Source: Solirubrobacterales bacterium (lineage in GTDB: Bacteria > Actinomycetota > Thermoleophilia > Solirubrobacterales > Solirubrobacteraceae). Taken from it: a stretch of DNA of 64,000 nucleotides. Position numbers and translations under genes: made by a program. The stretch is taken from the NCBI GenBank assembly GCA_003138355.1, contig PLFX01000016.1, forward strand, positions 123,251-187,250, read 5' to 3'. The notes under the pieces are model-generated. The model was not told the origin of the DNA. It did no database searches and saw only the letters and a program-made list of their open reading frames with translations. Below, in pieces: positions 37,256-64,000 of this stretch (position 1 is the stretch's first letter; each line of letters begins with the position of its first letter).

Positions 37256-38350
37256 TCAGGCCATCGGGAGCTCGACGAGCTCCCGCGGCGGCGGTCCGTC
37301 GTGCGGCGGCTGGGGCGGCTTCGAGCGCCGGCTCGGGAGCCACTGGCGCGAGCTGACGAGCGCGCGGATCGATTGGCGCGCGGAGGATGCCGTCGCGAGC
37401 GCGGCGGTCGGCTCGTAGCCGCAGTGAGCCATGCAGTTCGCGCAGCGCGGGTCGCGACCGCGGCCGTACTTGTCCCAGTCGGTCGTCTCGACGAGCTCCT
37501 TGTAGGTCTCGACGTACCCGTCACTCATCAGGTAGCACGGGCGCTGCCAGCCGAAGATCGAGTAGGACGGGATGCCCCACGCGGTGCAGGAGTAGTCGAC
37601 CTTGCCCTCGAGGAAGTCGAGGAAGAGCGGCGAGTGGTTCAGGCGCCAGCGCTTGCGGGCGCCGTTCGCGAAGGCGGCGCGGAAGAGCTCGTGGGTCTGC
37701 TTCACACCGAGGAAGTGCTCCTGATCCGGCGCCTTCTCGTAGGCATACGCGGGCGAGATCATCATCGCGTCGACCTCGAGCTCGTCGTTGAGGAAGTCGA
37801 GCACCTGGCGCACGGTGTCCGGTGAATCGTGTGTGAAGAAGGTCGTGTTAGTTGTCACGCGGAAGCCGCGTTCCTTCGCCGCCTTGATCGCGGCAACTGC
37901 CTTGTCGAAGACGCCGTCGCGGCAGACTGACTCGTCGTGGCGTTCACGCAGCCCATCCATGTGCACCGCCCAGGCGAAGTAGCGACTCGGCTCGAAGAGG
38001 TCGAGCTTGCGCTCCATCAGGATCGCGTTGGTGCAGAGATAGATGTAGCGCTTGCGCTTGATCAGCTCGCGCGCGAGCTCGTCGATCTCGGGGTGAATCA
38101 GCGGTTCGCCGCCGGCGATCGAAACCATCGGCGCGCCCGACTCTTCGATCGCCGCGATCGCTCGGTCGACCGGCATGCGCTGGCGCAGGATGTGGTCGGG
38201 GTGCTGGATCTTGCCGCAGCCCGCGCACTCGAGGTTGCATTGGTAGAGCGGCTCGAGCTCGACGATCAGCGGGAAGCGTTCGCGCTTGGCAAGTTTCTGG
38301 CGGGCGATGTAGCCGCCGACCGCCATGCTCTGGCGTAGCGGGACGGTCAT
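37256..38350 (-). CDS. hpnH: Adenosyl-hopene transferase HpnH (radical SAM)
   Basis: 'ELEPLYQCNLECAGCGKIQHPDHILRQRMPVDRAIAAIEESGAPMVSIAGGEPLIHPEI'; beside shc. Confidence 0.92.
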   Translation of the reverse strand: MTVPLRQSMAVGGYIARQKLAKRERFPLIVELEPLYQCNLECAGCGKIQHPDHILRQRMPVDRAIAAIEESGAPMVSIAGGEPLIHPEIDELARELIKRKRYIYLCTNAILMERKLDLFEPSRYFAWAVHMDGLRERHDESVCRDGVFDKAVAAIKAAKERGFRVTTNTTFFTHDSPDTVRQVLDFLNDELEVDAMMISPAYAYEKAPDQEHFLGVKQTHELFRAAFANGARKRWRLNHSPLFLDFLEGKVDYSCTAWGIPSYSIFGWQRPCYLMSDGYVETYKELVETTDWDKYGRGRDPRCANCMAHCGYEPTAALATASSARQSIRALVSSRQWLPSRRSKPPQPPHDGPPPRELVELPMA

Positions 38351-39879
38351 CCGTTCCTCGCGACGTTCGGCGGGAGCTTGAAACGAATCGTCTCCGTCGC
38401 GACGGTGCGCTGCGCGCACGTGACGGGTCCGAGCCCGGCGAGCGCGCCGACGACGCCCTCGACGAGCTCCTCGGGCGCGGAGGCACCCGCGGTCAGGCCA
38501 ATCCGGCGCGTGCCGGCGAGCAGCGCCGGACGGATGTCCTCCGCGTGCTCGACGAGCGCGGCCGGACAACCAGCGCGCTCGGCGACCTCGACGAGGCGCT
38601 GCGAGTTAGAGGAGTTCTGCGAGCCCACGACGAGAACGATGTCACACTCGCCCGCCAGGGCTCGGACGGCGTCCTGGCGGTTCTGTGTCGCATAGCAGAT
38701 GTCGTCGGATGCGGGGCCTGCCAGCAGCGGAAAGCGCTCGCGCAGGCGTTCGACGACGCGGTTGGTCTCATCCACGGCCAGCGTCGTCTGCGTGAGGTAG
38801 GCAACGCGCGTTGGGTCGTCGACCTCGACGTTGACGACCTCCTCCGCCGACGCGATCACCTGGACGCGCTCGGGTGCCTCGCCGAGAGTCCCATCGACCT
38901 CCTCGTGGCCCTCGTGCCCGATCAGGACGATGTCGAAGCCCTCGCGGGCAAAGCGCCGCGTCTCCGCATGGACCTTTGCCACGAGCGGACAGGTCGCGTC
39001 GATCACGTCCAGTCCGCGCTCGCCGGCCTCAGCGCGGACAGCCGGTGAGACGCCGTGGGCGGAGAAGATCACGGTCGCGCCGTGCGGAACCTCGTCGAGC
39101 TCCTCGACGAACACCGCGCCGAGCGCCTCGAGCTCGCGCACGACGTGCACGTTGTGCACGATCTGCTTTCGCACATAGATCGGAGCGCCACGCTCTGCGA
39201 GCGCGCCGCGGACGATGTCGACGGCGCGCACGACGCCCGCGCAGGATGCGCGCGGCGCGCCGAGGACCACGTCGCGCTCGCCGAGCAGCTCGGCCCACTC
39301 CTCGAGCAGGCCGGCGGCGCGGCGCAGCGAGCGGTAGGCGGCGAGCGCTCCCGAGGCCGCGCGGATCGGGCGGTACAACTCGTGGCTCGTGCTGTCGGAC
39401 ACGACGCGCAGGGTCACGAGCGGGCACGCCGTGGCCCGGCCCGCGATCCACGAGGACTCCATGTCGACCGCGATCGCGCCGCGTTGCGCGAGCTCGCGCC
39501 GCGCCGCGCCGTGAACGATCCGCGGCGAGCAGTGAATCGGACCGGTATGAACGCGCAGGCCACCGCGGCGCAGGATGCCGGCAAGGATCGCCGGATTGGC
39601 GCACTCGACCGTGTCGTCCGCGCTGCGCAGCTCGCTCGCGAGCACCACGTCGCCCGGCTCGAGCGAGTCGTCCAGCGCGCCCGCAAAGCCCGCGATCACG
39701 ACCGCGCTGGCGGAGTCCTGGGCGAGCCACGCGGAGCGCTCGGCGTTGCGCGGTCCGACGCCGAACTGCTCGACGCGCGCCCATGGCGCGCCGGAGCGCA
39801 CTGCGCGCGCTTCGACCCCCATCGGCGTCAGCACAACGAGGCTGCGTGTGCGCGGGGCGGTCTCGAGCAATGCGCTCAT
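38347..39879 (-). CDS. Fusion of HpnG-like nucleoside phosphorylase (N-term) and IspH/LytB HMBPP reductase (C-term)
   Basis: N-term 'LVVLTPMGVEARAVR...VVIAGFAGALDDSLEPGDVVLASELR...AVDMESSWIAG'; C-term 'VVLGAPRASCAGVVRAVDIVRGAL...IVHNVHVVRELEALGAVFVEELDEVPHGATVIFSAHGVSP...IDATCPLVAKVH'. Confidence 0.92.
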   Translation of the reverse strand: MSALLETAPRTRSLVVLTPMGVEARAVRSGAPWARVEQFGVGPRNAERSAWLAQDSASAVVIAGFAGALDDSLEPGDVVLASELRSADDTVECANPAILAGILRRGGLRVHTGPIHCSPRIVHGAARRELAQRGAIAVDMESSWIAGRATACPLVTLRVVSDSTSHELYRPIRAASGALAAYRSLRRAAGLLEEWAELLGERDVVLGAPRASCAGVVRAVDIVRGALAERGAPIYVRKQIVHNVHVVRELEALGAVFVEELDEVPHGATVIFSAHGVSPAVRAEAGERGLDVIDATCPLVAKVHAETRRFAREGFDIVLIGHEGHEEVDGTLGEAPERVQVIASAEEVVNVEVDDPTRVAYLTQTTLAVDETNRVVERLRERFPLLAGPASDDICYATQNRQDAVRALAGECDIVLVVGSQNSSNSQRLVEVAERAGCPAALVEHAEDIRPALLAGTRRIGLTAGASAPEELVEGVVGALAGLGPVTCAQRTVATETIRFKLPPNVARNG

Positions 39880-41795
39880 CGCGTGTAGCGCCCCAGCGCC
39901 ATGATCGGAAACACGAGCCTGTAGAGGTGGTAGTTGATGTAGAAGTCAGACGGGAAGCCGGTGCCTGTGAAGTAGGGCTCATCCCAGGTCCCGTCGGGCC
40001 GTTGCGTGTCGGCGAGATAGAGCAGCCCGCGGCGAACCGCGTCGGAGTGCTCGCCCGCTGCGTGCAGGGCGATCAGCGCCCAGGCGGTCTGCGAAGCGGT
40101 GCTCGCGCCGCGACCCGCCCATTCGTGGTCGAAGTAGGAGCGGATGTCCTCACCCCAGCCGCCGTCGGCGTTCTGGTGCTCCTCGAGCCAGCGAACGGCG
40201 CGGCGGATGCGCAGATCGCGCGGCGAGACGCCGGCCGCGACCAGCGCCGGGACGACGGCCCCGGTCCCGTAGACGTAGTTGACGCCCCAGCGCCCGAACC
40301 AGGACCCGTCCGGTTCCTGGTTGTCGCTCAGCCAGCCGAGCGCGCTCTGCGCATATTCGCTGTCGGTCTCGCCGTAGGCCGCCAACATCTCGAGCACGTG
40401 TGCGGTTACATCGGCGCTCGGCGGGTCGATGACTTCGCCGAAGTCGCAGAACGGGAGCTCCCGGATCACGGGCCTCGTGTTGTCGGCGTCGAACGCACCC
40501 CAGCCGCCGTCGCTCGAGCGCATCCCCTTCGTCCAGCGGACTCCGAGCTCGATCGCGCGGTCGAGCCGCGCGCGATCGGGATGGTCGGCGCGTAGCAGCG
40601 CGAGCACTACCTCCGCCGTGTCGTCGATATCCGGATAGTTGTCGTTGGCGAACTCGAAGGCCCAGCCGCCGGGGGCAAGCCCCGGGCGCCGCACCGACCA
40701 GTCGCCTTTGACCAGAACCTGCTCGTCAAGTAGCCACTCGGTGGCCTCGACGATCGCCGGGTCATCAAGCGGGGCGCCGGCGTCAGCGAGCGCAATCAGC
40801 GCGAGCGCCGTATCCCAGACGGGCGACTGGCAGGCCTCCAAGCGTCGCCCATCGCGGTCGCGGATCGTGAAACGCTCGAGCCCTGCGAGACCGGCGTGTA
40901 TCACCGGGTGCTCGAGCGGGTAGCCGCGCAGGTGCAGCGCGATCAGCGAATAGACCCACGGCGGCTGGATTCCCCCCCACGATCCGTCGGCTTCCTGGCG
41001 CGAGACGATGAACCGCTCCGCGCGGCGCGCGGCGTACTCGCGCAGCACCCGCACGGGACGGCGCTCGTAGACGTGCAGCAGGCGGTCTGTCCAGAGGAGC
41101 AAGCGCGCGCGCCAGGTCGTCGCGTGTGGCGGCTGCCACGGCTGGGGCCCGTGCAGCTCCGGGGTCGCGAAGCCAAGCGACCGGACGGGGCGCTGCGCCG
41201 AGACGAGCGTCAAGGCGACGACCGTCTGGCGCGCCCAGCAGGCGAAGTCGTAGATGTTCAGCGGAATCCACGGCGGCAGCAGCATCAGCTCGGGCGGCAC
41301 CACCGGGATCTGCTCCCATGACCAGAGCCCGAAGAGCGCGAGCCAGACGTGGGTGAAGACGCGCGCACGCTCGAGCCCGCCCGCAGCGCGGATCCGCTCG
41401 GCGGCCGCGCGCATGTGGTCGGCGCCGGGTGGGTCGCCGCCGAGGCGCAGCGCGAGATAGGCCTCGATCGTCGTCGAGAGATCGCCGGGGCCGCCGTAGA
41501 ACTTCGCCCACTGCCCGTCCGCCAGCTGCTGGCTACGGATCCATTCGCACGCCTCGCGCGTGACCGCGTCGGTGCGGATGCCGAGGAACTCGCGCAGCAG
41601 CAGGTCCTCGGCGTCCATCGTCACGTTCGTCTGGAGCTCGCCCTTCCACCAGCCATCGGCGTGCTGTAGCCCGCGCAGCTGCTCGACGGCACGACGGAGC
41701 GCCCGGGCGGGCGTCCCGACCGGGACCGCGGGCGCATCGCGAAGGACCGTTACCGAGTCGGCGGGCGCCTCGCCGACCTGCACTGCAGCGCACAT
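39876..41795 (-). CDS. shc: Squalene-hopene cyclase
   Basis: QW-type repeats 'LQHADGWWKGE', 'DGGWGAFDADNTRPVIRELPFCDFGEVIDPPSADVTAHVLE', 'QRPDGTWDEPYFTGTGFPSDFYINYHLYR'. Confidence 0.95.
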   Translation of the reverse strand: MCAAVQVGEAPADSVTVLRDAPAVPVGTPARALRRAVEQLRGLQHADGWWKGELQTNVTMDAEDLLLREFLGIRTDAVTREACEWIRSQQLADGQWAKFYGGPGDLSTTIEAYLALRLGGDPPGADHMRAAAERIRAAGGLERARVFTHVWLALFGLWSWEQIPVVPPELMLLPPWIPLNIYDFACWARQTVVALTLVSAQRPVRSLGFATPELHGPQPWQPPHATTWRARLLLWTDRLLHVYERRPVRVLREYAARRAERFIVSRQEADGSWGGIQPPWVYSLIALHLRGYPLEHPVIHAGLAGLERFTIRDRDGRRLEACQSPVWDTALALIALADAGAPLDDPAIVEATEWLLDEQVLVKGDWSVRRPGLAPGGWAFEFANDNYPDIDDTAEVVLALLRADHPDRARLDRAIELGVRWTKGMRSSDGGWGAFDADNTRPVIRELPFCDFGEVIDPPSADVTAHVLEMLAAYGETDSEYAQSALGWLSDNQEPDGSWFGRWGVNYVYGTGAVVPALVAAGVSPRDLRIRRAVRWLEEHQNADGGWGEDIRSYFDHEWAGRGASTASQTAWALIALHAAGEHSDAVRRGLLYLADTQRPDGTWDEPYFTGTGFPSDFYINYHLYRLVFPIMALGRYTR

Positions 41796-41832
41796 GCCCC
41801 ACCCGTATATCCGATCGAAGATGAGAGGAGCC

Positions 41833-42285
41833 TTAGAGCCCCTCGCGCGCCTCGAGCGTGCCGAGGTGGGCGATGCTCTCGAGGTCGGCCTGCTTGTCGC
41901 TTGGCGGCGTGGAGAACCAGGCGTCGAGGATCTCCGCAAGTTCTGCGTCGGCGGTCGAGCGCAGGCTGAGCGCAAGAACGTTTGCGTCGTTCCAGCGGCG
42001 CGCTCCGGCCGCGGCGACGGCGTCATGACAAAGCGCCGCGCGGACGCCGGGAATCTTGTTCGCCGCGATCGCGGCGCCGGTGCCGGTCCAGCAGCAGACG
42101 ATCGCCTGATCGGCTGCACCACCGACGACCTCACGAGCGGCGGCGGCAGAGCTCAGCGCCCAGTCGGGCTGCTCGCCGTCGGTGAGCGCGCCGTGAAGCA
42201 ACAGTTCGTGGCCCCGCTCCCCCAGTTCCACCGGGAGGATCACGGCAATCCCGGTCAGCTCATCCGCGGCCACGGCAATCCGCAC
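41833..42285 (-). CDS. RpiB/LacA/LacB-family sugar-phosphate isomerase, divergent
   Basis: 'AIVCCWTGTGAAIAANKIPGVRAALCHDAVAAAGARRWNDANVLALS'. Confidence 0.85.
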   Translation of the reverse strand: MRIAVAADELTGIAVILPVELGERGHELLLHGALTDGEQPDWALSSAAAAREVVGGAADQAIVCCWTGTGAAIAANKIPGVRAALCHDAVAAAGARRWNDANVLALSLRSTADAELAEILDAWFSTPPSDKQADLESIAHLGTLEAREGL

Positions 42286-44603: not shown

Positions 44604-46838
44604 ATGACATTCGACTTCGACGCTCTCTACGACCGTGCCACCCGCGCGGCGACGCCAGCGGAACGTGACGCCTGTCAGGATGAGATCGACCGGGCGCTTG
44701 CGGGCACTGCGGATGCTGCCGACCGTGGGCGGCTCCTCATGTGCCGGGCGCGCCTGCGCTCGAACCAGTGGCGCACGACGGACGTCGTTGCCGACGCCCA
44801 GAGTGCGTTCAAGCTCTTCGAGCGGGCCGGCGAGGAGGAGCTCGCCGTCGAGGCGGCGAGCCTCGCGTCGGCGCACGCGTCCCGCCTGGGCGAGCTGTCG
44901 CTCGCCTCGGAGCTCGCGACGAAGTGCATTCTCGCGCTCGACTGGCTGCCCATGGGCAGGCCGCGGCTCGAGATCACCAACCGGCTTGGGATCTACTGCT
45001 ACTCGTGCCTCGACTACGAGCGCGCCGGGGAGCTGTACACAGCCGCGCTCGCGATGGCCGAGGAGCTTGGCGATACCGAGCGGACCTGGCGCCAGCTGTT
45101 CAACGTCGCCGACGCGCTCCTGCTCGCTGCGCGCCACCGCCGTCGTCTCGGGCTCGATGGCGAGATGGCGCTGCTCGACCGCGCGGAGGCGTTGGTACGC
45201 CGGCTTCTCGCGGAGGCGCCGCTCGAGGTGCACCGGCGCTTTGCCACCCACCGTGTGCTGGCCGAGGTGCTTTGCGAGCTCGGCCGCGTCGACGAGGCGC
45301 TCAGCGCACTCGACGCTTCGCGCGGTCCGCTCGAGGATGTCGCACAGACGGCCCAGCGCGCGGCGCTCGGGTGGGTCACGGCGCGGTGCCTGCGCGCCTC
45401 CGGGCGGGCCACCGAGGCAATCGAAGCCGCGGCGACCGCGGTCGCGATCGCCGAACAGAGCGACGACGATCACGAGCTGATGCTTGCGCTTGAGGAGCTC
45501 GCCGCAAGCCAGGAGGCGGCCGGCGACGCATCTGGGGCGCTCGCGACCGCGCGCGAGGTGAACTCGCGAATGTGGGCGATCCATCAGCGCCAGACGACCC
45601 AGCTCGTCGAGGAGGCGTTCGCTCGCGCCGACCTGGAGCGCGAGCGCCGCGCGCTCGAATCCGAGGCGGCTGACGCGCACCGGGCGACCAGCGAGAAGTC
45701 CGCATTCCTCGCCAACATGAGCCACGAGATTCGCACGCCGATGAACGGCGTCCTCGGCATCGCCGAGATCCTGCTCGATACAGAGCTCAACGACGGCCAG
45801 CAAGAGCTCGTCCGCCAGCTCAGCGGCTCCGGTGAGCACCTCATGAGCGTCATCAACGACATCCTCGACCTCTCGAAGATCGAGGCCGGGCGGATGGAGC
45901 TCGACTTCACCGACTTCGACCTGCGCGACAACATCGAGCAGACCTGCGCCGCTGCGCGCGTCCAGGCCGAAGCGAAGGGCCTCGCGCTCGACGTGCACTT
46001 CGGCGAGCTGGTGCCGCGGCGGGTCTCCGGAGACGATCGCCGCATGCGCCAGGTCCTGACGAACCTCCTGGGCAACGCGATCAAGTTCACCGCTAAGGGA
46101 GCTGTCGGCGTCGAGGTCACCGTCGAGCTGCTCGAACTGCGGCGGGCACACGTCACGATCGCGGTCGCGGATACCGGGATCGGTATCGAGCCGCCGGCAC
46201 TCGAGCGCATGTTCGAGCCGTTCACCCAGGCGGGCGCCTCGACCGCTCGCAACTACGGCGGCACCGGCCTCGGCCTGACCATCGCGCGTCAACTGGCAGA
46301 GCTGATGGGTGGCACGATCCGCGCAACCAGCGATCCGGGCCACGGGAGCACCTTCGTCTTCGAGCTCGAGCTCGCGGTCGCGCGCGACTCGGGGCTTACT
46401 GCGGTGCGCAGCGAACCCGCGGAGACTGCGCACCCGCACTGGTCGCGGCCACCGCTCGTGCTTGTAGCCGAGGACAATCCGGTGAACCAGCTCGTCGTTT
46501 CTCGCGCGCTCGAGCGCGCGGGCTGCCAGGCCGAGATCGTCGGCGACGGCGAGCAGGCGCTCCAGGCGCTCGCGGAGCGCCGCTATGACGCAGTCCTGAT
46601 GGACTGCCAGATGCCGGTGCTTGACGGCTATGAGGCTACGCGCGAGCTACGCCGCCGCGAGAACAGCTCTGAGCACACGCCGGTGATCGCGATGACCGCG
46701 CACGCGATGAAGGGCGCGATCGATGATTGCCTGGAGGCCGGAATGGACGACTACCTGTCCAAGCCGCTGCGACGCGAACAGCTCAACCAGGCGCTCGCGC
46801 GCTGGATCCCCTCACAGACTGGCAGCGCAGCAGCGTGA
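44604..46838 (+). CDS. Hybrid sensor histidine kinase, TPR-like N-terminus, HisKA/HATPase/REC
   Basis: '[39 protein letters not shown]', '[19 protein letters not shown]', '[22 protein letters not shown]'. Confidence 0.92.
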
Positions 46839-46915
46839 TTATCGGCGAGCGTGGCGAGCGCTCGCATAGGTGAAGCCAGCGCGAATCGCTGTCGATATTC
46901 CCAAGAGACTCCCGG

Positions 46916-49153
46916 ATGGCGATCGATCTAGACACGCTCTACGAGCGCGCGAGCCGCGCCGCGACGCCCGGCGAGCGCGAAGCCTGCGATCGCGAGATCG
47001 ATGACGCGCTCGCGGCGAGCGCCGATCCGGTCGAGCAGGGGCGGCTGCTGATGTGCCGGGCCCGCTTGCGCTCGAACCAGTGGCGCACGGCGGAGGTCGT
47101 GGCAGCAGCGGAGAGCGCGATCGTGCTGTTCGAGAGCTGCGGCGAGGACGAGCTGGCGGTTGATGCGGCGAGCTTTGCGATGGCGCACGCCTCGCGACTC
47201 GGGGAGCTCTCGCTCGCCTCAACTCTCGCAACGAGATGCATCCTCGCACTGGACTCCCTGCCGGTCGGAGGGCTGCGAGTCGAGATCCTCAACCGGCTCG
47301 GTATCTACTGTTACTCCTGCCTCGATTATGGCCGCGCGGTCGATCTGTACGAGGCCGGTCTGGCGGTCTCCGAGGAGCTCGGCGACGACGACCGCACCTG
47401 GCGCCAGCTGTTCAACATCGCCGACTCACTCCTGCTCGCAACGCATCGGCGCCGGTGGGTGGGCCTTGACCCTGACCGGGCGGTGCTCGAACGCGCCGAG
47501 ACGGCCGCGCGACGGTTGATTGCGAACGCACCGCCGGAGGTCCACCGCCTGTTCGGCAGTCATCGTCTGCTCGCAGAAGTGCTGTGCGAGCTCGGAGACC
47601 CAGCGCAGGCGCTCGCTGTGCTCGACGACTCTCGAGATCAGTTCGAGACGGCGAACCTCGGAGTCGAGCGCGCGGCACGCGCCTATGTGCAGGCGCGCTG
47701 CTTGCGGGCTCTCGGGCGCCCGCAGGAGGCGGTCGACGCAGCGCGGCTCGCCGTGCAGATCGACGAGCACAGCGGCGACGATCACGAGCTGATGCTCGCG
47801 CTCGAGGAGCTCGGTGCGAGCGAGGAGGCCGCCGCGGACACCGCCGCAGCGCTCACGACATCGCGCCACGTGAACGCGCGAATGTGGACGATCCACCAGC
47901 GCCAGACGATGCAGCTCGTCGAGGAGGCTTTCGCCCGCGCCGACCTCGAACGCGGCCGCCGTGCGCTCGAATCGGAGGCGGCGGCCGCGCAGCGCGCGAC
48001 AAGCGAGAAGTCGGCATTCCTGGCGAACATGAGCCACGAGATCCGCACGCCGATGAACGGCGTGCTCGGCATCACCGAGATCCTGCTCGAGACGGACCTC
48101 GACGAAAAGCAGCGCGAGCTCGTCCACCAGCTCGCCGGCTCCGGCGAGCACCTGATGGGCGTCATCAACGACATCCTCGACCTCTCGAAGATCGAGGCCG
48201 GCCGGATGGAGCTCGCTGTGGGGGAGTTCGACCTGCGCGACACAATCGAGCAATCGTGTGCGGCCGCCCGTGTCGAGGCCGATGCGAAGGGGGTGGCGTT
48301 CGAGCTGTCCTTCGCCGAGTACGTTCCGCAGTGGGTCGCGGGCGACGATCGGCGCGTGCGCCAGGTCCTCCTGAATCTCGTCACGAACGCGATCAAGTTC
48401 ACGGCCGCCGGATTTGTCGCGGTCGACGTCTCAGCCGAGTTGCTGCCAAGCCGCCGGGCTCGCGTAACGATTGCGGTCAGTGACAGCGGGATCGGGATCG
48501 AAGCGCCGGCGCTCGAGCGCATGTTCGAGCCGTTCACCCAGGCGGACGCCTCGACGACCCGCAACTACGGCGGCACGGGGCTTGGCCTGACGATCGCACG
48601 ACAGCTCGCGGCGCTGATGAACGGCTCGATCCGCGCCACGAGCGGGCCGGCGCGTGGCAGCACCTTCTTCTTCGAGCTCGAGCTGGCAGTGCTCCGCGCC
48701 AGCCGCCGCCAGACCATCGATGCCTCGAGCCGGGAGAGCGCGCTGCCGAGCTGGCGCGAGGCCCCGCGCGTGCTCGTGGCCGAGGACAACCCCGTCAACC
48801 AGATCGTGATCGTGCGCGCCCTGGAGCGAGCCGGCTGCATTGCCACGGTCGTCAACGACGGCGAGCAGGCGCTCGAAGCGCTCGCGAAGGAGTGCTACGA
48901 CGTCGTGCTGATGGACTGCCAGATGCCCGGCATGGACGGCTATGAGGCGACCCGCGAGCTACGCCGCCGCGAGGAGCGGGACGGGGCTCACGTGCCCGTC
49001 ATTGCGATGACCGCACACGCGATGGAGGGCGCCGCCGACGAGTGCCGCGCCGCGGGGATGGACGACTACCTGAGCAAGCCGCTGCGGCGCGAGCAGCTGA
49101 ACGACGCGCTGGCGCGCTGGATCCCTGCCGAGAAGCACAGCGCCGCCGCCTGA
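46916..49153 (+). CDS. Hybrid sensor histidine kinase, tandem paralog of the preceding gene
   Basis: Same architecture and extended identity to 44604-46838 from the N-terminus onward. Confidence 0.92.
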
Positions 49154-53088: not shown

Positions 53089-54879
53089 GTGCGCGCACAG
53101 ATCAGCGTCCAAGCAGCCGCGCTTGGCGCGGCGTTTGCTCTACTCGCGGGCGGTCCCGGCGTGGCTCGGGCTGCCAACCCGCCCTCGCCGCCGTCAGAGG
53201 TGATCTCCCCGCTGCCCGGCACCCCGGACGCGAACCCCGATACTCAGATCAGCTTCCTCGGCGCGCCCGCTTCTCACCTGCGCGACATCTCGGTCGTCGG
53301 GTCGCGGAGCGGGACGCACCGCGGTCGCCTGCGCTTCTATTCGACCCACACCGGCGGCAGCTTCCTCCCCGCGCGCGCGTTCATCGCCGGCGAGACGGTA
53401 ACGGTGAGCGCGCAGGTCGTCGGGTACGGCACGCCGTTGAGGATCGCTACGCGGTTCACCGTTTCGCGGCCGGCAGCGCTCTCCGGTGCAGGGCCGATGC
53501 AGGCGGCCACGCCGAGCTCGCCGGACGTGCAGCACTTCCACTCGCGTCCCGACCTCCAGCCGCCCGCAGTCAGCGTGACGACACCCGCCGCCGACCCGGG
53601 GCTCGGCGACGTGTTCATCACGGCCGACGGCGGTCCCGGCGAGGCCGGCGCGATGATCATCGCCCCGAGCGGACAGCTCGTCTGGTTCCTGCCCACGAAG
53701 GGCACGCTGAAGGCGTTCAACCTCAACGTCCAGTCATACCGCACGCAGCCTGTTCTGACCTGGTGGCAAGGGCAGGTCGTCGCCGGCCACGGCCAGGGCG
53801 TCGATGAGATCTACAGCTCGAACTACGTGCATATCGCCACGGTCCGCGCCGGCAACGGCCTGTTCGCGGACCTCCACGACTTCGTGCTCACGCCCCACGG
53901 CAGCGCCTGGATCACGGCCTACGCACCCGTGCACGCCGATCTCAGGCCGTTCGGCGGCTCGACCGACGGCATCATCGAGGACGGGGTCGTGCAGGAGATC
54001 GACATCAAGACCGGGCTCGTCATGTTCGACTGGCATGCGCTCGGCCACGTGCCGATCAGCGCGTCCTATATGTCCGTTCCGCGCCCCGCGGGCCAATTGT
54101 TCGACTTCTTCCACTTGAACTCGATCGATCCGCTGAGCAATGGGACGGCGCTGATCTCCGCGCGCAACACCTGGGCGACCTACCTGGTCAGCGAGACGAC
54201 GGGCAACGTGCTGTGGCAGCTTGGCGGCAAGCACAGCAGCTTCACGCTTGGCCCGGGCGTCAGCTTCGCCTGGCAGCACGACGCCGAGCTGCTGGCGAAC
54301 GACACGCTGACCTTGTTCGACAACGACGACTCCCCGGCGGAGGCGAGCGAGTCGAGCGCGCTCACGATCGCGCTCGATCCGAGCGCGTCGACCGCGACAC
54401 TCGTAACGCGCCTGACACACCCCGGAACGCCGATCCTCTCCAACAGCCAGGGGGACGTCCAAGAGCTTGCGAACGGCGACACCTTCGTCGGCTGGGGCGA
54501 TGTCGCCGACGCGTCCGAATTCTCGGCGAGCGGCCAGCTCACATTCGACCTGCATCTCCCGACAGCGACGACGAGCTACCGCGCATTCCGCTTCCCGTGG
54601 AGCGCGCAACCGCCGTCGCGCCCGGCGCTCGCCGCGAGCACCAACGGCCAGCAGATGTGGCTTTACGCGAGCTGGAACGGCGCGACCAACGTCGCGAGCT
54701 GGCAGGTGCTCGCGGGCTCCACGTCCGGCTCGCAGGGCGTGGTCGGCACCTATCCGGACACCGGGTTCGAGACGTCGATCGTCGCACCGACGACGGCGCC
54801 CTACGTCAGCGTCCTCGCACTCTCAGCGAGCGGCACGGTCCTCGCGCGCTCACGAACGGTCGCGCTCGCGCACGGCTGA
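53089..54879 (+). CDS. Secreted arylsulfotransferase-family (ASST-like) protein
   Basis: Signal peptide, 'GEAGAMIIAPSGQLVWFLP', 'DLHDFVLTPHGSAWITAY', 'SFAWQHDAELLANDTLTLFDN'. Confidence 0.8.
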   Translation: MRAQISVQAAALGAAFALLAGGPGVARAANPPSPPSEVISPLPGTPDANPDTQISFLGAPASHLRDISVVGSRSGTHRGRLRFYSTHTGGSFLPARAFIAGETVTVSAQVVGYGTPLRIATRFTVSRPAALSGAGPMQAATPSSPDVQHFHSRPDLQPPAVSVTTPAADPGLGDVFITADGGPGEAGAMIIAPSGQLVWFLPTKGTLKAFNLNVQSYRTQPVLTWWQGQVVAGHGQGVDEIYSSNYVHIATVRAGNGLFADLHDFVLTPHGSAWITAYAPVHADLRPFGGSTDGIIEDGVVQEIDIKTGLVMFDWHALGHVPISASYMSVPRPAGQLFDFFHLNSIDPLSNGTALISARNTWATYLVSETTGNVLWQLGGKHSSFTLGPGVSFAWQHDAELLANDTLTLFDNDDSPAEASESSALTIALDPSASTATLVTRLTHPGTPILSNSQGDVQELANGDTFVGWGDVADASEFSASGQLTFDLHLPTATTSYRAFRFPWSAQPPSRPALAASTNGQQMWLYASWNGATNVASWQVLAGSTSGSQGVVGTYPDTGFETSIVAPTTAPYVSVLALSASGTVLARSRTVALAHG

Positions 54880-56750: not shown

Positions 56751-57644
56751 ATGCGGTGGTTGCAGGCGATTTCGTCCCGTCAAACCCTCTTGAGAGCCAA
56801 TCGCCGCAGCCCTCGCGCTCGCCGCTGGGAGCTGAGTGAGGCGGAGCTCGAGCGGATGGCCGCGGCCCGAAGCCGTCCCCTTGATGCGCGCACGGCGCTG
56901 ATGCTGCTTGCGCGATCGCCCCGCCTGGCCACCGATGTCGCGCATGTTCTCGGCGGCGCGCTGCGAAGCGTGATCTTCGACAACAACCCGCTGATATCGA
57001 TCCTCGACGCAGAGCGCGGCCGCTCCGCGGTTCCGGACGCGGCCACGGGCGTGGGATGGTACGACGAGCAGCCGTTCCTGGACGTGCTTGCGCCGCACCT
57101 CCGCAGCGAGCTGATCGCACTCGAGCTCGGCTGCGGCGGCGGGCGGATCTCCCGGCGCGTGGCGCCGATGGTAGGAGAGCTCGTGTGCACCGACGTGCTG
57201 GCGTCGATGGTCGCCGAAGCGTCCGAGAATCTGGCCGCGTATGCCAACGTCACGGTGGCACAGACCGACGGCTTTGCGCTGCACGAGTTCCAGGAACGCA
57301 GCTTCGACCTCGTGTTCGCGCAGGGCGTGTTGGGGTATCTGGATCCCAATCCGCTGCTCGGCATGCTCGATGAGGTGGCGCGCGTGCTGCGCCCGGACGG
57401 AGTGTGCGTGTTCAACTTCTCGACGATCGACCACCCGCAAGACATGCGGTGGCAGCTCGAGACCGTTCGCGAGCAGGCGCGCAGGCGTCGCTTCAGTGGT
57501 GCGACGGACCGCGCCTATACGCGGGCGCAGCTCTCCGCGATGTACGAGGCAGTGGGGTTGCATGTGCTTCCCGCCGCCGAGCTCGCCGTCGCCGGCGCCG
57601 GGCGTGTCGTGATCGCCGGTCGGCGCCCGGCCGGTGGCGCGTAG
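56751..57644 (+). CDS. Class I SAM-dependent methyltransferase
   Basis: 'LIALELGCGGGRISRRVAPMVGELVCTDVLASMV', 'FDLVFAQGVLGYLDPNPLLGMLDEVARVLRPDG'. Confidence 0.85.
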   Translation: MRWLQAISSRQTLLRANRRSPRARRWELSEAELERMAAARSRPLDARTALMLLARSPRLATDVAHVLGGALRSVIFDNNPLISILDAERGRSAVPDAATGVGWYDEQPFLDVLAPHLRSELIALELGCGGGRISRRVAPMVGELVCTDVLASMVAEASENLAAYANVTVAQTDGFALHEFQERSFDLVFAQGVLGYLDPNPLLGMLDEVARVLRPDGVCVFNFSTIDHPQDMRWQLETVREQARRRRFSGATDRAYTRAQLSAMYEAVGLHVLPAAELAVAGAGRVVIAGRRPAGGA

Positions 57645-59147: not shown

Positions 59148-59966
59148 ATGAGAACGCACGACTTCGATCAATACCTTCGCCAGCTGGGAGTCGCGGAGCT
59201 CTCGCCCGCTAGTTGTCCATTCGATCCTGGAATCGCCCCGACCGTGCTCGAGAGCCATCTTGAGCAGAGCGCTCACCTCATTCTGAGCTTGAAGATCTCG
59301 ATGTCCTGCTGGATCATCGCCAACCCCGAAGCCACACGCCGGAAGGTTGCGGCAGCGAAGGCGGCGGCCGTGGCGACCTCGGCGGGCGGTGGGCCGTACG
59401 AGGTAGCCGTCGCGCAGGGAATGCTTCCCGCCTATCTGGACCTGTGCGCGGACGTTGGTTTCGATGCCATCGAGTGCGGTTCGGGCTTCACCGATGGCGG
59501 CATGCCGCCCGCTGAAGCCGCCGAGCTGATCCGACAGCGGAACCTAATCTTCGACTACGAGTTGGGTGACAAGCACAGCGGCGAATTCGGCAGCGCGCAG
59601 GTCTCCGAGCTGATCGACGAGGGTCACCGCTGGCTGGACGTCGGGGCGCGTCGGCTCGTGATCGAGGCGCGGGAGAGCGCGAGTGATATCGGCCTCTTCG
59701 ATGCCCGTGGCAAGCTCGATACGACCCACGCAGACCGCCTCGTCGATGAGTTCGGCCTGCAGATCCTCGTGTTCGAGGCTCCGACAAAGTCGAGCCAGTT
59801 CGCGCTGATCGAGCACTTCGGACCGAACGTGCGGCTGGGAAACCTCCCGATGAACGAGCTGCTTCGCGTCGAAACCTACCGCCGCGGGCTGCACTCGGAT
59901 GCCTTCGCGAACGCGTCCCTGCGACCGCGGCGCGATGGTGTATCGGCGTTGGAGCAGTCCTCGTGA
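59148..59966 (+). CDS. ComA-like phosphosulfolactate synthase
   Basis: 'YLDLCADVGFDAIECGSGFTD', 'RRLVIEARESASDIGLFDARGKL', 'ILVFEAPTKSSQFALIEHFGPNVRLGNLPMNELLRVETYRRGLHSDAF'. Confidence 0.87.
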   Translation: MRTHDFDQYLRQLGVAELSPASCPFDPGIAPTVLESHLEQSAHLILSLKISMSCWIIANPEATRRKVAAAKAAAVATSAGGGPYEVAVAQGMLPAYLDLCADVGFDAIECGSGFTDGGMPPAEAAELIRQRNLIFDYELGDKHSGEFGSAQVSELIDEGHRWLDVGARRLVIEARESASDIGLFDARGKLDTTHADRLVDEFGLQILVFEAPTKSSQFALIEHFGPNVRLGNLPMNELLRVETYRRGLHSDAFANASLRPRRDGVSALEQSS

Positions 59967-60682
59967 GCGACGCGAGGCCCACAGTGGCCGTCGCCTGCTA
60001 TCCGAGTACGCTGGAACCGACCGCTGGATGGGTCACCGTGGGAATCGACGTCCTCCGGGCGACGACCACGGCCGTGACCGCGGTCGCTGCGGGACACCGC
60101 TGCTTTCCGGTTGGCTCAATCGAGGCGGCGGTACCGCTAGCCGCCCGTCTGCCCGATCCATTGTTAGTGGGAGAGCTCGGCGGCCACATGCCGTACGGCT
60201 TCCATCTGCAGAACAGCCCGGTCGAGATGGAGCGCCGCGCCAATTCCAACCGGCCGGTGATCCTCCTCTCGACCAGCGGCACGCGTCTGCTTAGCGAGGC
60301 CGCGGTTGCGGGGACGACATTCGCGGCGTGTCTACGCAACGCGCGCGCCCAGGCACAGTGGCTGGTCGGGCGTCACGAGCGCGTCCTGCTGCTCGCGGGC
60401 GAGAGCCGCGGCGAGTTTCGTGAGGAGGATCGCCTTTGTTGCGCGCGCATCGCCAAGGCATTGATCGAGTCGGGTTACCGACCGGCCAGCGCGTTCGTGG
60501 AAGAGCTGGTCAAGCACTGGGGTGACGCCCCCGATGACGCGTTTCTAGCTGGGCACAGCGTTCGCTATCTCACGGACACCGGCCAGTACCACGACGTCGA
60601 CTTCACGCTGGCGCACATCGATGACCTCGACTCGGTGTACGAGCTGCGCGACGGCGAGCTTCTCCGGGCAGACGGGGGATGA
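59963..60682 (+). CDS. ComB-like 2-phosphosulfolactate phosphatase
   Basis: 'GIDVLRATTTAVTAVAAG', 'LLVGELGGHMPYGFHLQNSPVEM', 'LLSTSGTRLL', 'EEDRLCCARIAKAL'. Confidence 0.9.
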   Translation: MSDARPTVAVACYPSTLEPTAGWVTVGIDVLRATTTAVTAVAAGHRCFPVGSIEAAVPLAARLPDPLLVGELGGHMPYGFHLQNSPVEMERRANSNRPVILLSTSGTRLLSEAAVAGTTFAACLRNARAQAQWLVGRHERVLLLAGESRGEFREEDRLCCARIAKALIESGYRPASAFVEELVKHWGDAPDDAFLAGHSVRYLTDTGQYHDVDFTLAHIDDLDSVYELRDGELLRADGG

Positions 60683-61983
60683 GCGCGGGCCGCCCCGCAC
60701 CCGAAGCGCACGGCCCGGAGGAACCCGACCCCGACGGCCGTCCTGTGCCGGTGCTCGTGCTGCGGCGGAGCCTGGGCGACCTTCAGCACGGCGTGCTCGC
60801 CGTCGCGCGCACCCTGGGCCGGCTCGGCGTACCTGTGTACGCGACGACTCGGAGCTGGATGGAGCCGGCGACGAAGACGCGCTACATCACGGGAAAGCTC
60901 GATCTGAGCGCCGGCGCGAGCGACGAAGAGTGGATTGACCAGCTGATGGGGCTCGACCCGCAGCTGAGCGGCGGCATCCTGCTCCCGATCGACGACGTCT
61001 CCGCGGTGACCGTCGGAGAACATCAGGAGCTCCTGTCGAGCCGTTTTCGGCTGCCTTTGCAACCGCAAGGTCTCCAGCGACGGCTGGCATCGAAGCACGC
61101 GCTGCTGACGATCTGCCAGGAGCTCGGGGTGCCCAGCCCAGAAACGAAGCTGGTCACCTCGTGCGAGGAGGCGCAGGGTTTTGCGGAGAGGTTCGGTTAT
61201 CCGGTCGTCCTCAAACGAGCTGAGACCTGGGGCGGAGTGATCGATCCGCAAGCGCCGAGTGTGCTCGTCGTCGACGGTCCGTCTGAGCTTCGCCAGGCTT
61301 ATGAGCGCATGCGCGTACAGGCCCCCGAACACGTGCCCAACGTCCTTGCTCAGGAGTACATCCCCGGCGACTCGGAGTCGGTATGGATGTTCAACGGCTA
61401 CTTCGATCGCGAGTCGCGCTGTCTGGCCGCGTTCACAGGACGCAAGCTCAGGCAGTGCGCGAAGGGCACGGGGCAGACGGCACTCGGGGTCTGCGCGGAC
61501 AACCAGACGGTGACCGACCTCGCCGTCCGGTTGATGGAAGGCGTTCACTACCACGGCATCGTCGACATGGGCTTTCGGTTCGACGCCCGCGACGGCCTCT
61601 ACAAGCTGCTTGACGTCAACCCGCGCGTCGGCAGCACGTTCCGGCTGTTTGCGGCTCCGGATGGAGCCGATGTCGTGCGAGCCATGTATCTGGACCTCAC
61701 GGGCCGTCCGGTACCTCCGGCGGCCGCCGTCGCGGGCCGCAGCTGGGTCGATGAGCCGCACGACGTGGCGGCCTCGCTGCGGCTCGTTCGCGCACGCAAG
61801 CTGTCACTCAGAGCGTGGGCTCGCTCACTGAGCGCGGTGAGCGAATCGGCCTGGTGGGCGAAGGATGACCCGGTGCCCTTCTTCGCGATGGCCGCGAGCC
61901 TGCCGCGTCATGGGTTCGCCCACCTCGTGGGCAGCCGACGCGCACGGCCCGCCGAGATGGCCTCCTCCCCGCCCGAGCAGTGA
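60679..61983 (+). CDS. ATP-grasp domain carboxylate ligase-like protein
   Basis: 'ASKHALLTICQELGVPSPETKLV', 'YPVVLKRAETWGG', 'NVLAQEYIPGDSESVWMFNGYF', 'LYKLLDVNPRVGSTFRLF'. Confidence 0.88.
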   Translation: MSAGRPAPEAHGPEEPDPDGRPVPVLVLRRSLGDLQHGVLAVARTLGRLGVPVYATTRSWMEPATKTRYITGKLDLSAGASDEEWIDQLMGLDPQLSGGILLPIDDVSAVTVGEHQELLSSRFRLPLQPQGLQRRLASKHALLTICQELGVPSPETKLVTSCEEAQGFAERFGYPVVLKRAETWGGVIDPQAPSVLVVDGPSELRQAYERMRVQAPEHVPNVLAQEYIPGDSESVWMFNGYFDRESRCLAAFTGRKLRQCAKGTGQTALGVCADNQTVTDLAVRLMEGVHYHGIVDMGFRFDARDGLYKLLDVNPRVGSTFRLFAAPDGADVVRAMYLDLTGRPVPPAAAVAGRSWVDEPHDVAASLRLVRARKLSLRAWARSLSAVSESAWWAKDDPVPFFAMAASLPRHGFAHLVGSRRARPAEMASSPPEQ

Positions 61984-62816
61984 CCGAGACGAACCCCCAG
62001 GTCGCAGTCGACGAGCACTTCGATCGGCGCAGCGATTACTGGCGCGACGTCTACGGCGGGGACAGCGCCGAGTCGCTCGCCTACCGCGAGCGCATGGAGA
62101 CGGCGCTGGCGTGGGTGGATCAGCTGAACCTGCCGGCCGGCGCGAGCGCCCTCGATGTCGGCTGCGGGGCCGGGCTGATGACGGTCGAGCTGGCGGCTCG
62201 GGGAATGCGGGTGAGCGCCTGCGACTCGAGTCCGGAGATGGTGAGGCAGGCGCAACAGACAGCCGAGGCCCGCGGCCTGGCGGCCACGGTGCAGTTCGTG
62301 CGCGCTGATGCGGGCGAGCTCCCGTTTCGATCAGCTTCGACCGGTTTGGTCGTCGCGCTCGGCCTCATTCCGTGGCTACCCGAGCCCCAGCGCGCAGTGA
62401 ACGAGATGGCACGGGTGGTCGAACCAGGCGGTTGGCTGATCCTCACCGCCGACAACGCGCTGCGCTTGAATGTTCTAACCGACCCGTCTGAGAACCAACT
62501 CCTCGCACCACTGCGGCCGGTGTACCGCGCGCTCGAGCGCTGGCGCCGGCACGGGGCCCACGCAACCGCGCGCTACTACCGGCATCGACCCTCTCAGGTC
62601 AGGCAGATGCTCCGCGCGGCCGGGTTTCAGCCGAAGCTCGAGGCGACCGTCGGCTTCGGGCCGTTCACGTTCATGGGCCGACACCTGCTGAGCGACAAGC
62701 GCTCGGTCGCGCTGACCCGCCGCCTCGAGGCCTTGGCCGAACGGCATCCCCGGCTGCGCCGCCACGGCTGGCATTTCCTGGTCAGCGCGCAGCGCGTCGG
62801 CGAACGGTCAGGCTGA
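61980..62816 (+). CDS. Class I SAM-dependent methyltransferase
   Basis: 'ASALDVGCGAGLMTVELAARGMRVSACDSSPEMVRQAQQTAE', 'VVEPGGWLILTADN'; GTGA overlap with ATP-grasp gene. Confidence 0.9.
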   Translation: MTETNPQVAVDEHFDRRSDYWRDVYGGDSAESLAYRERMETALAWVDQLNLPAGASALDVGCGAGLMTVELAARGMRVSACDSSPEMVRQAQQTAEARGLAATVQFVRADAGELPFRSASTGLVVALGLIPWLPEPQRAVNEMARVVEPGGWLILTADNALRLNVLTDPSENQLLAPLRPVYRALERWRRHGAHATARYYRHRPSQVRQMLRAAGFQPKLEATVGFGPFTFMGRHLLSDKRSVALTRRLEALAERHPRLRRHGWHFLVSAQRVGERSG

Positions 62817-62864: not shown

Positions 62865-64000
62865 TTACGCGGCCGATGCGTGCAGGCGTTGAGAGCGCCA
62901 CCACGCAAACTGCCGCGCGCCATGATGCTCCCGCTCGCGCTTGTGGGGCGAGCTTGCGCTGGTCGCCGCGGCCCGTACGGTCGCGGTCAAGCGGGAGGTA
63001 ACCGAGCTCGATCCGGCCGCGTTTGACGCGGTCACCGTCACCTCGAGCTCCTTGCCCAGATCCGCGCCGACAACGGTGTACGACCTGGAGGTCGCGCCTG
63101 CAATCGCCCTGCACCTGAGCCCGTGCCCGTTGCAGCGCCGCCACTGGTATCTGAAGCGAGTCGGTGATCCCGTCCACGACCCCTTGGCGGCGGTCAGTCT
63201 CTGGTGCACGCGAATCCTGCCCAAAATCCCCGGTCGGCCGGTGATGCGTGGAGTGGTCGGCTCCGTCGACGAGGGAGCTCCCGGTGGCCCGGTGGCGTCC
63301 GAGGATAGGGGCACGGTCGCCGTTGCAGCCGACGTGGCCGAGCGCGATCCGCCGCCGTTCGACGCGGTCACGGTCACCGCGAGCGTGTGGCCGACGTCGA
63401 CGCTGGCCACGCTGTAGGTCTGGCCAGTTTGGCCTGTGATCGCGCTGCAGTTGGCCCCGCTCGCGTCGCAGCGCTGCCACGCGTAGCCGTAGCTGATCGA
63501 CGCTCCGCTCCAGGTTCCGTTGCTCGCCGTTAGCGTCTGGCCTACCCGCGCGCTGCCCGAGATCACCGGCGGCGCCGTGTTGGCGGGGGGAGTCGGGGGC
63601 ACAAGCACCGTCGCAGCCGACGAGGCGGACGCTGATCCGTCGCTGTTCGACGCGGTCACCGTCACCGCGAGCGTGTCGCCGACGTCGGCGTCGGCCACGC
63701 CGTAGCTCTGGCCGGTTTGACCGGTGATCGAGCTGCAGTTGGCGCCACTCGCGTCGCAGCGCTGCCACTGGTAGCTGTAGGTCGTGTAGGCCAACGGTCC
63801 GGTCCAGGTCCCGTTGCTCGCCGTGAGCGTCTGGCCCACCTGCGCGCTGCCCGAGATCACCGGCGCCGCCGTCTTGGCGGGCGGCGCCGTAGCGCAGCTA
63901 GGGATGGCTTTGCAGACGTCGAGGATGCCGCCGGTGCGTACGAGGCCGTTGAGAGCTGGGATCGGGTTGACGTTGTTCAGGATGTCGGCTTTCAGCTGGG
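62865..64000 (-). CDS. C-terminal part of a secreted protein, probably S8-type peptidase with Ig-like repeats; truncated at window edge
   Basis: Frame stays open to base 64000 ('KADILNNVNPIPALNGLVRTGGILDVCKAIPSC', subtilase-C-terminus-like), then three repeats of 'GQTLTASNGTW...YQWQRCDASGANCS.ITGQTGQ.Y.VA..DVG.TLAVTVTASN'. Confidence 0.7.
   Translation of the reverse strand, partial: QLKADILNNVNPIPALNGLVRTGGILDVCKAIPSCATAPPAKTAAPVISGSAQVGQTLTASNGTWTGPLAYTTYSYQWQRCDASGANCSSITGQTGQSYGVADADVGDTLAVTVTASNSDGSASASSAATVLVPPTPPANTAPPVISGSARVGQTLTASNGTWSGASISYGYAWQRCDASGANCSAITGQTGQTYSVASVDVGHTLAVTVTASNGGGSRSATSAATATVPLSSDATGPPGAPSSTEPTTPRITGRPGILGRIRVHQRLTAAKGSWTGSPTRFRYQWRRCNGHGLRCRAIAGATSRSYTVVGADLGKELEVTVTASNAAGSSSVTSRLTATVRAAATSASSPHKREREHHGARQFAWWRSQRLHASAA

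Follow-up and report, generated by a model that had tools for sequence, protein, structure and literature searches.

The window analyzed here, a stretch of 64,000 nucleotides from a Solirubrobacterales bacterium (assembly GCA_003138355.1, contig PLFX01000016.1), carries at positions 59148-62816 an operon in which homologs of the coenzyme M enzymes ComA and ComB are followed by an ATP-grasp ligase and a methyltransferase. Our analysis showed that this cassette is a real, conserved and undescribed biosynthetic module built from known enzyme families, and a literature search found no published function for the gene set. We propose that, rather than serving the coenzyme M pathway, the module probably produces 3-sulfolactate and conjugates it. 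The four open reading frames (ORFs) form a single tight run on the plus strand, as follows.

59148-59966, plus strand: ComA-clade enzyme of 272 amino acids (PF02679, 9.7e-43), proposed to convert phosphoenolpyruvate (PEP) and sulfite to (R)-2-phospho-3-sulfolactate
59963-60682, plus strand: ComB-like phosphatase of 239 amino acids (PF04029 2-ph_phosp, 1.4e-35), proposed to remove the phosphate and yield sulfolactate
60679-61983, plus strand: ATP-grasp ligase of 434 amino acids (weak ATP-grasp Pfam matches), proposed to activate the sulfolactate carboxylate and form an amide (or ester)
61980-62816, plus strand: class I S-adenosylmethionine (SAM)-dependent methyltransferase of 278 amino acids (Methyltransf_11, 8.2e-25), proposed to methylate the sulfolactate moiety or its conjugate

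Read from the sequence, the stop and start codons of adjacent genes overlap by four bases at all three junctions (GTGA, ATGA and GTGA). An earlier sequence-only reading of this DNA had described four consecutive genes coupled in this way with no ComC-, ComD- or ComE-like gene adjoining them, and both descriptions were borne out, with every ORF and overlap in its place.

The gene set recurs in other genomes. Queries with ComA or the ATP-grasp enzyme identified eight further genomes of the phylum, in all of which the ComA, ComB and ATP-grasp genes were clustered, and a wider scan limited to one genome per species returned 80 loci, making 81 with the window (single loci are referred to below by L numbers). 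The large ORF clusters 3-5 of this locus set were read as antisense shadows of cassette genes and left out. The 80 loci span at least eight bacterial phyla and two archaeal metagenome-assembled genomes (MAGs), the latter of which could be mis-binned; the record names include Actinobacteria, Acidobacteria, Chloroflexi, Proteobacteria (alpha, gamma and delta), Ignavibacteria, Nitrospirae, Gemmatimonadetes, Polyangium and Desulfobacteraceae. They do not amount to 80 independent events, since near-identical relatives occur among them and several had already turned up in the first set of eight genomes. ComB was present in 77 of the 81 loci and the ATP-grasp gene, usually immediately after ComB, in 69, and all four genes occurred together in 36. 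The partners named in the sequence-only reading are conserved from genome to genome; a homolog of the methyltransferase occurs in 38 loci, and this gene is less central than had been assumed. Ordinary ComA genes of the same class served as a matched control. Within 1.5 kb of ComA genes of the window type (hereafter clade ComA), ComB was found in 63/68 and the ATP-grasp gene in 52/68 loci, compared to 0/44 for either gene beside ordinary ComA. Neighborhoods of 20 kb gave the same picture for clade versus ordinary ComA, with ComB in 46/50 versus 0/20, ATP-grasp in 45/50 versus 1/20 and the methyltransferase in 26/50 versus 0/20 (Fisher p between 6.6e-14 and 1.6e-5, without correction for relatedness). 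Chance adjacency of an ordinary ComA and its neighbors was rejected by these controls. Given that ComA-ComB-ATP-grasp recurs in most of the 80 loci and that ordinary ComA genes go without these partners, the operon is more than a chance arrangement. This conservation considerably strengthens the idea of the sequence-only reading, that sulfolactate is coupled by the ATP-grasp enzyme and then methylated rather than turned into coenzyme M; the interpretation is partly supported, the chemistry and the acceptor being what we infer. Among individual carriers, the cassette occurs in an atmospheric-methanotroph MAG (Beijerinckiaceae USCa_AHI, L127) and in the cultured Bradyrhizobium elkanii WSM2783 (L140). 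A gene beside ComA at L085:6399-7433, with a weak below-cut-off sulfotransferase match, has a 34% homolog that also lies beside ComA, in another genome (L087:10907-11917).

The ComA protein of the window belongs to a separate clade of its family. It matched PF02679 at 146.8 bits against a gathering cut-off of 25.2, and the usual ComA proteins of 61 relatives scored 250-298 bits against the same model, compared to 147 for the window protein. When the window protein was searched in 249 genomes of the class, five matches of 51-64% identity were obtained, below which the score dropped from 268 to 87 bits, and all five genomes additionally held at least one lower-scoring, ordinary ComA. The three other sampled members of the window's genus gave no ComA match, so the distribution is patchy and horizontal spread of the clade is likely. 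In a tree of 129 sequences that included M. jannaschii 1QWG and B. subtilis 1u83, all 81 close homologs formed one monophyletic group on a long stem (local support 0.81). About 30 alignment columns are common to clade and ordinary ComA, among them, in M. jannaschii numbering, the core residues E133, K137 (K142 of the window protein by alignment), E168, R170, E205, N227, E237 and R240. The structure model (predicted template modeling score, pTM, 0.76) had 1QWG, a TIM-barrel, as its top Foldseek match, with template modeling (TM) scores of 0.73/0.79. Since the catalytic core is kept and the model best matches 1QWG, it is likely that clade ComA carries out a ComA-type reaction on PEP, and sulfite is the probable nucleophile.

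The window ComB matched PF04029 at 122.9 bits against a cut-off of 26.4, and the residues D29, R32, T35, G70-E71, N84-S85-P86, G106-T107 and E155-D156 were near-invariant in 77 homologs, the motif residues being held in common with 2yyv. The AlphaFold model of the ATP-grasp protein (pTM 0.85) matched biotin carboxylase, PurK and D-Ala-D-Ala ligase (Ddl) in Foldseek at TM scores of about 0.5-0.7, and K139, K179, Q225-E226, D296 and D312-x-N314-P-R316 are conserved, so that the ATP- and Mg-binding residues (K139, K179, Q225-E226 and D312-x-N314) are kept. The methyltransferase belongs to the ordinary class I enzymes.

Put together, these families suggest the following route. Judged by its family and by how its active site is conserved, the ComA-clade enzyme would join PEP and sulfite to (R)-2-phospho-3-sulfolactate, which ComB would dephosphorylate to (R)-sulfolactate. 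The ATP-grasp enzyme would then phosphorylate the sulfolactate carboxylate with ATP and couple it to an amine, and in many species this acceptor probably belongs to a cell-surface polysaccharide or to the precursor of one. Where the SAM methyltransferase is present, as it is in the window and in about half of the loci overall, it may finally cap a hydroxyl or carboxyl group. Sulfite can be made by the cell, since the source genome (a MAG of 2.76 Mb, 94% complete) encodes CysH, which makes sulfite, in addition to a NirA-type sulfite/nitrite reductase. The same genome returned no match for the alpha subunit of sulfopyruvate decarboxylase (ComDE) and none for an Ldh_2-type ComC (sulfolactate dehydrogenase), and its sole match to XcbC of Xanthobacter proved to be the argininosuccinate lyase ArgH (524 bits); coenzyme M is therefore not the expected product, and the full coenzyme M gene set that could have accounted for ComA and ComB was not found in this genome. 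The cassette thus shares with the archaeal ComA-ComB-ComC-ComDE pathway its first two enzyme families, the ComA catalytic core and the ComB motifs, and differs from it in that an ATP-grasp enzyme and a methyltransferase follow instead of ComC and ComDE. The bacterial coenzyme M (Xcb) loci of Xanthobacter, Mycolicibacterium and Nocardioides plasmids likewise use a ComA-family phosphosulfolactate synthase, about 30-34% identical to the window ComA, but its neighbors there are lyases and a pyridoxal phosphate (PLP) enzyme, without ComB or ATP-grasp. In Bacillus, YitD and YitC (ComA and ComB) form free sulfolactate that accumulates in spores; the B. subtilis ComA (1u83) is a homolog that falls outside the clade of the window protein, and we know of no ATP-grasp or methyltransferase partner for this pair.

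Accessory genes at other loci provide clues to the product. A LarA homolog lies at the cassette in 11 loci (L094, L113, L119, L121, L123, L125, L126, L130, L156, L158 and L162), at most 46 bases away from a cassette gene in 8 of the 11, and an acid-sugar-dehydratase-like protein of the enolase superfamily (MR_MLE) comes directly after the cassette at 7 others, none of which is a LarA locus, and is on the same strand and within 102 bases in 7/7. The apparent mutual exclusion of these two partners (11 versus 7 loci, none in common) was not significant (p = 0.28). Both families act on alpha-hydroxy acids, and either enzyme may act on sulfolactate as an optional step in some organisms; this step is not proposed for the window, and the source genome has no Lar_N protein. 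The LarA homologs keep most of the catalytic residues, and their best NCBIfam models were the malate racemases LarAH6 and LarAH5 at 167-178 bits against cut-offs of 462-500, which makes them a distinct group. Since malate is the carboxylate analog of 3-sulfolactate, a sulfolactate racemase is the natural guess for this candidate. The Ni-dependent malate racemases LarAH5 and LarAH6, the closest models, are described in two papers on the LarA superfamily (PMC7583248, PMC11770544), neither of which mentions sulfolactate. A second ATP-grasp protein, resembling the ligase part of cyanophycin synthetase and N-acetylglutaminylglutamine synthetase, occurs nearby in 12 loci and hints at amide chains. 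Among 104 genes flanking the cassettes, the top Pfam families were glycosyltransferases, sugar epimerases, undecaprenyl-phosphate sugar transferases and polysaccharide deacetylases, a profile that points to frequent placement in polysaccharide loci. A Bradyrhizobium symbiosis paper containing both sulfolactate and exopolysaccharide proved to be unrelated. In three Streptomyces loci (L153, S. albicerus; L157, S. sp. 150FB; L163, S. cellostaticus), at which no ATP-grasp gene was detected, clade ComA lies near nonribosomal peptide synthetase or ketosynthase genes, and in L153 and L157 an ornithine cyclodeaminase/mu-crystallin enzyme is adjacent to it. Peptide natural products may therefore be a further destination of this building block, possibly in the form of sulfonated nonribosomal peptides.

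On the wider scale, one possibility that we put forward tentatively is a horizontally spread, previously undescribed sulfolactate-amide pathway in microbes from soil and sediment that belong to many phyla, serving mainly the sulfonated decoration of surface polysaccharides and including, in some carriers, the first known sulfolactate racemase. Sulfonates are an important organic sulfur reservoir in soil, and the uses of ComA known to us are few, namely coenzyme M and spore sulfolactate. A widely shared module for sulfolactate conjugation would extend the bacterial sulfonates by a new class and give ComA and ComB a new role in organisms without coenzyme M, and its products could be traced by a simple genetic marker. 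The idea can already be tested in cultured carriers, among them B. elkanii WSM2783 with the full cassette and several Streptomyces with the ComA clade.

Several observations weigh against the synthesis and conjugation of sulfolactate as set out above. Both the window ComA and the window ComB miss the cut-offs of their NCBIfam equivalogs (144.1 versus 280 bits for arch_ComA, TIGR03849; 68.8 versus 175.05 bits for TIGR00298), and none of the members has a known activity. At 19 positions conserved in ordinary ComA the clade has switched residue, including the GWGTS loop, which reads SMACW, and T76 to G, D138 to H and R244 to H (M. jannaschii numbering), so that sulfite might not be the nucleophile. 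The predicted fold of the ATP-grasp enzyme leaves its substrates unread, and about half of the loci do not carry a methyltransferase of the window type. With regard to the surface, polysaccharide loci were not significantly enriched over the ordinary ComA control (26/50 versus 6/20, p = 0.12), and none of the 30 Glycos_transf_1 matches of the source genome lies on the contig of the cassette; a surface polysaccharide is thus a lead for many carriers and not a result for this genome. The residue switches, together with the low equivalog score, speak for a rival in which the nucleophile that clade ComA adds to PEP is not sulfite, ComB frees another 3-substituted lactate and the ATP-grasp enzyme conjugates it; the module would work by the same logic, but its product would not be a sulfonate. 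We regard this as unlikely, given that the core residues listed above are kept, that ComB is retained alongside clade ComA and that the malate-racemase-like partners fit an anionic malate analog. Less probable still is that free or methylated sulfolactate is the end product, as an osmolyte or stored metabolite, with the ATP-grasp enzyme acting elsewhere, for instance in the assembly of a short peptide or of some surface precursor. Accumulation in Bacillus spores sets a precedent for it, and nine loci have ComA and ComB without a detected ATP-grasp gene (some owing to contig ends), but the ATP-grasp gene is present in 69/81 loci, usually straight after ComB, and beside 0/44 ordinary ComA genes. 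A coenzyme M or sulfopyruvate pathway with its later steps encoded elsewhere in the genome is largely refuted and highly improbable, for although archaeal coenzyme M synthesis starts with ComA and ComB and a gene could be missing from a 94% complete MAG, neither ComC nor ComDE alpha was detected in it, its XcbC-like match is ArgH, and the Xcb loci carry lyase and PLP genes in place of ComB and ATP-grasp.

Sulfolactate conjugation remains the reading we favor for the operon, and two further genes lie upstream of it in the window.

56751-57644, plus strand: second methyltransferase, possibly in the local cluster, with a 57% identical homolog divergently adjacent to ComA in the closest relative, L082/L093
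57634-58905, plus strand: secreted-looking protein with no Pfam or NCBIfam match, 0.24 kb upstream of the ComA gene

Two relatives have homologs of the secreted-looking protein close to their cassette (42% identity in L085; a fragment in L082). No promoter or terminator came to light when the operon was scanned for them. The window and its contig of 187 kb end together, so the downstream side of the operon is only partly visible. On that side the operon is adjoined by a secreted-looking protein with immunoglobulin (Ig)-like repeats (62865-63998, minus strand), which runs off the window end, and similar repeat proteins occur near the cassette in L098, L105, L113, L122 and L171. Upstream of the operon, an Arylsulfotransferase (ASST)-like protein is encoded at 53089-54879. 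Farther away, a radical SAM protein (DUF3463), a LytB ORF additionally bearing a PNP_UDP_1 (nucleosidase-type) domain and a squalene-hopene cyclase follow one another at 37256-42134 in what looks like a hopanoid cluster, and two successive hybrid histidine kinases with TPR repeats, identical in domain layout, occupy 44604-49153.

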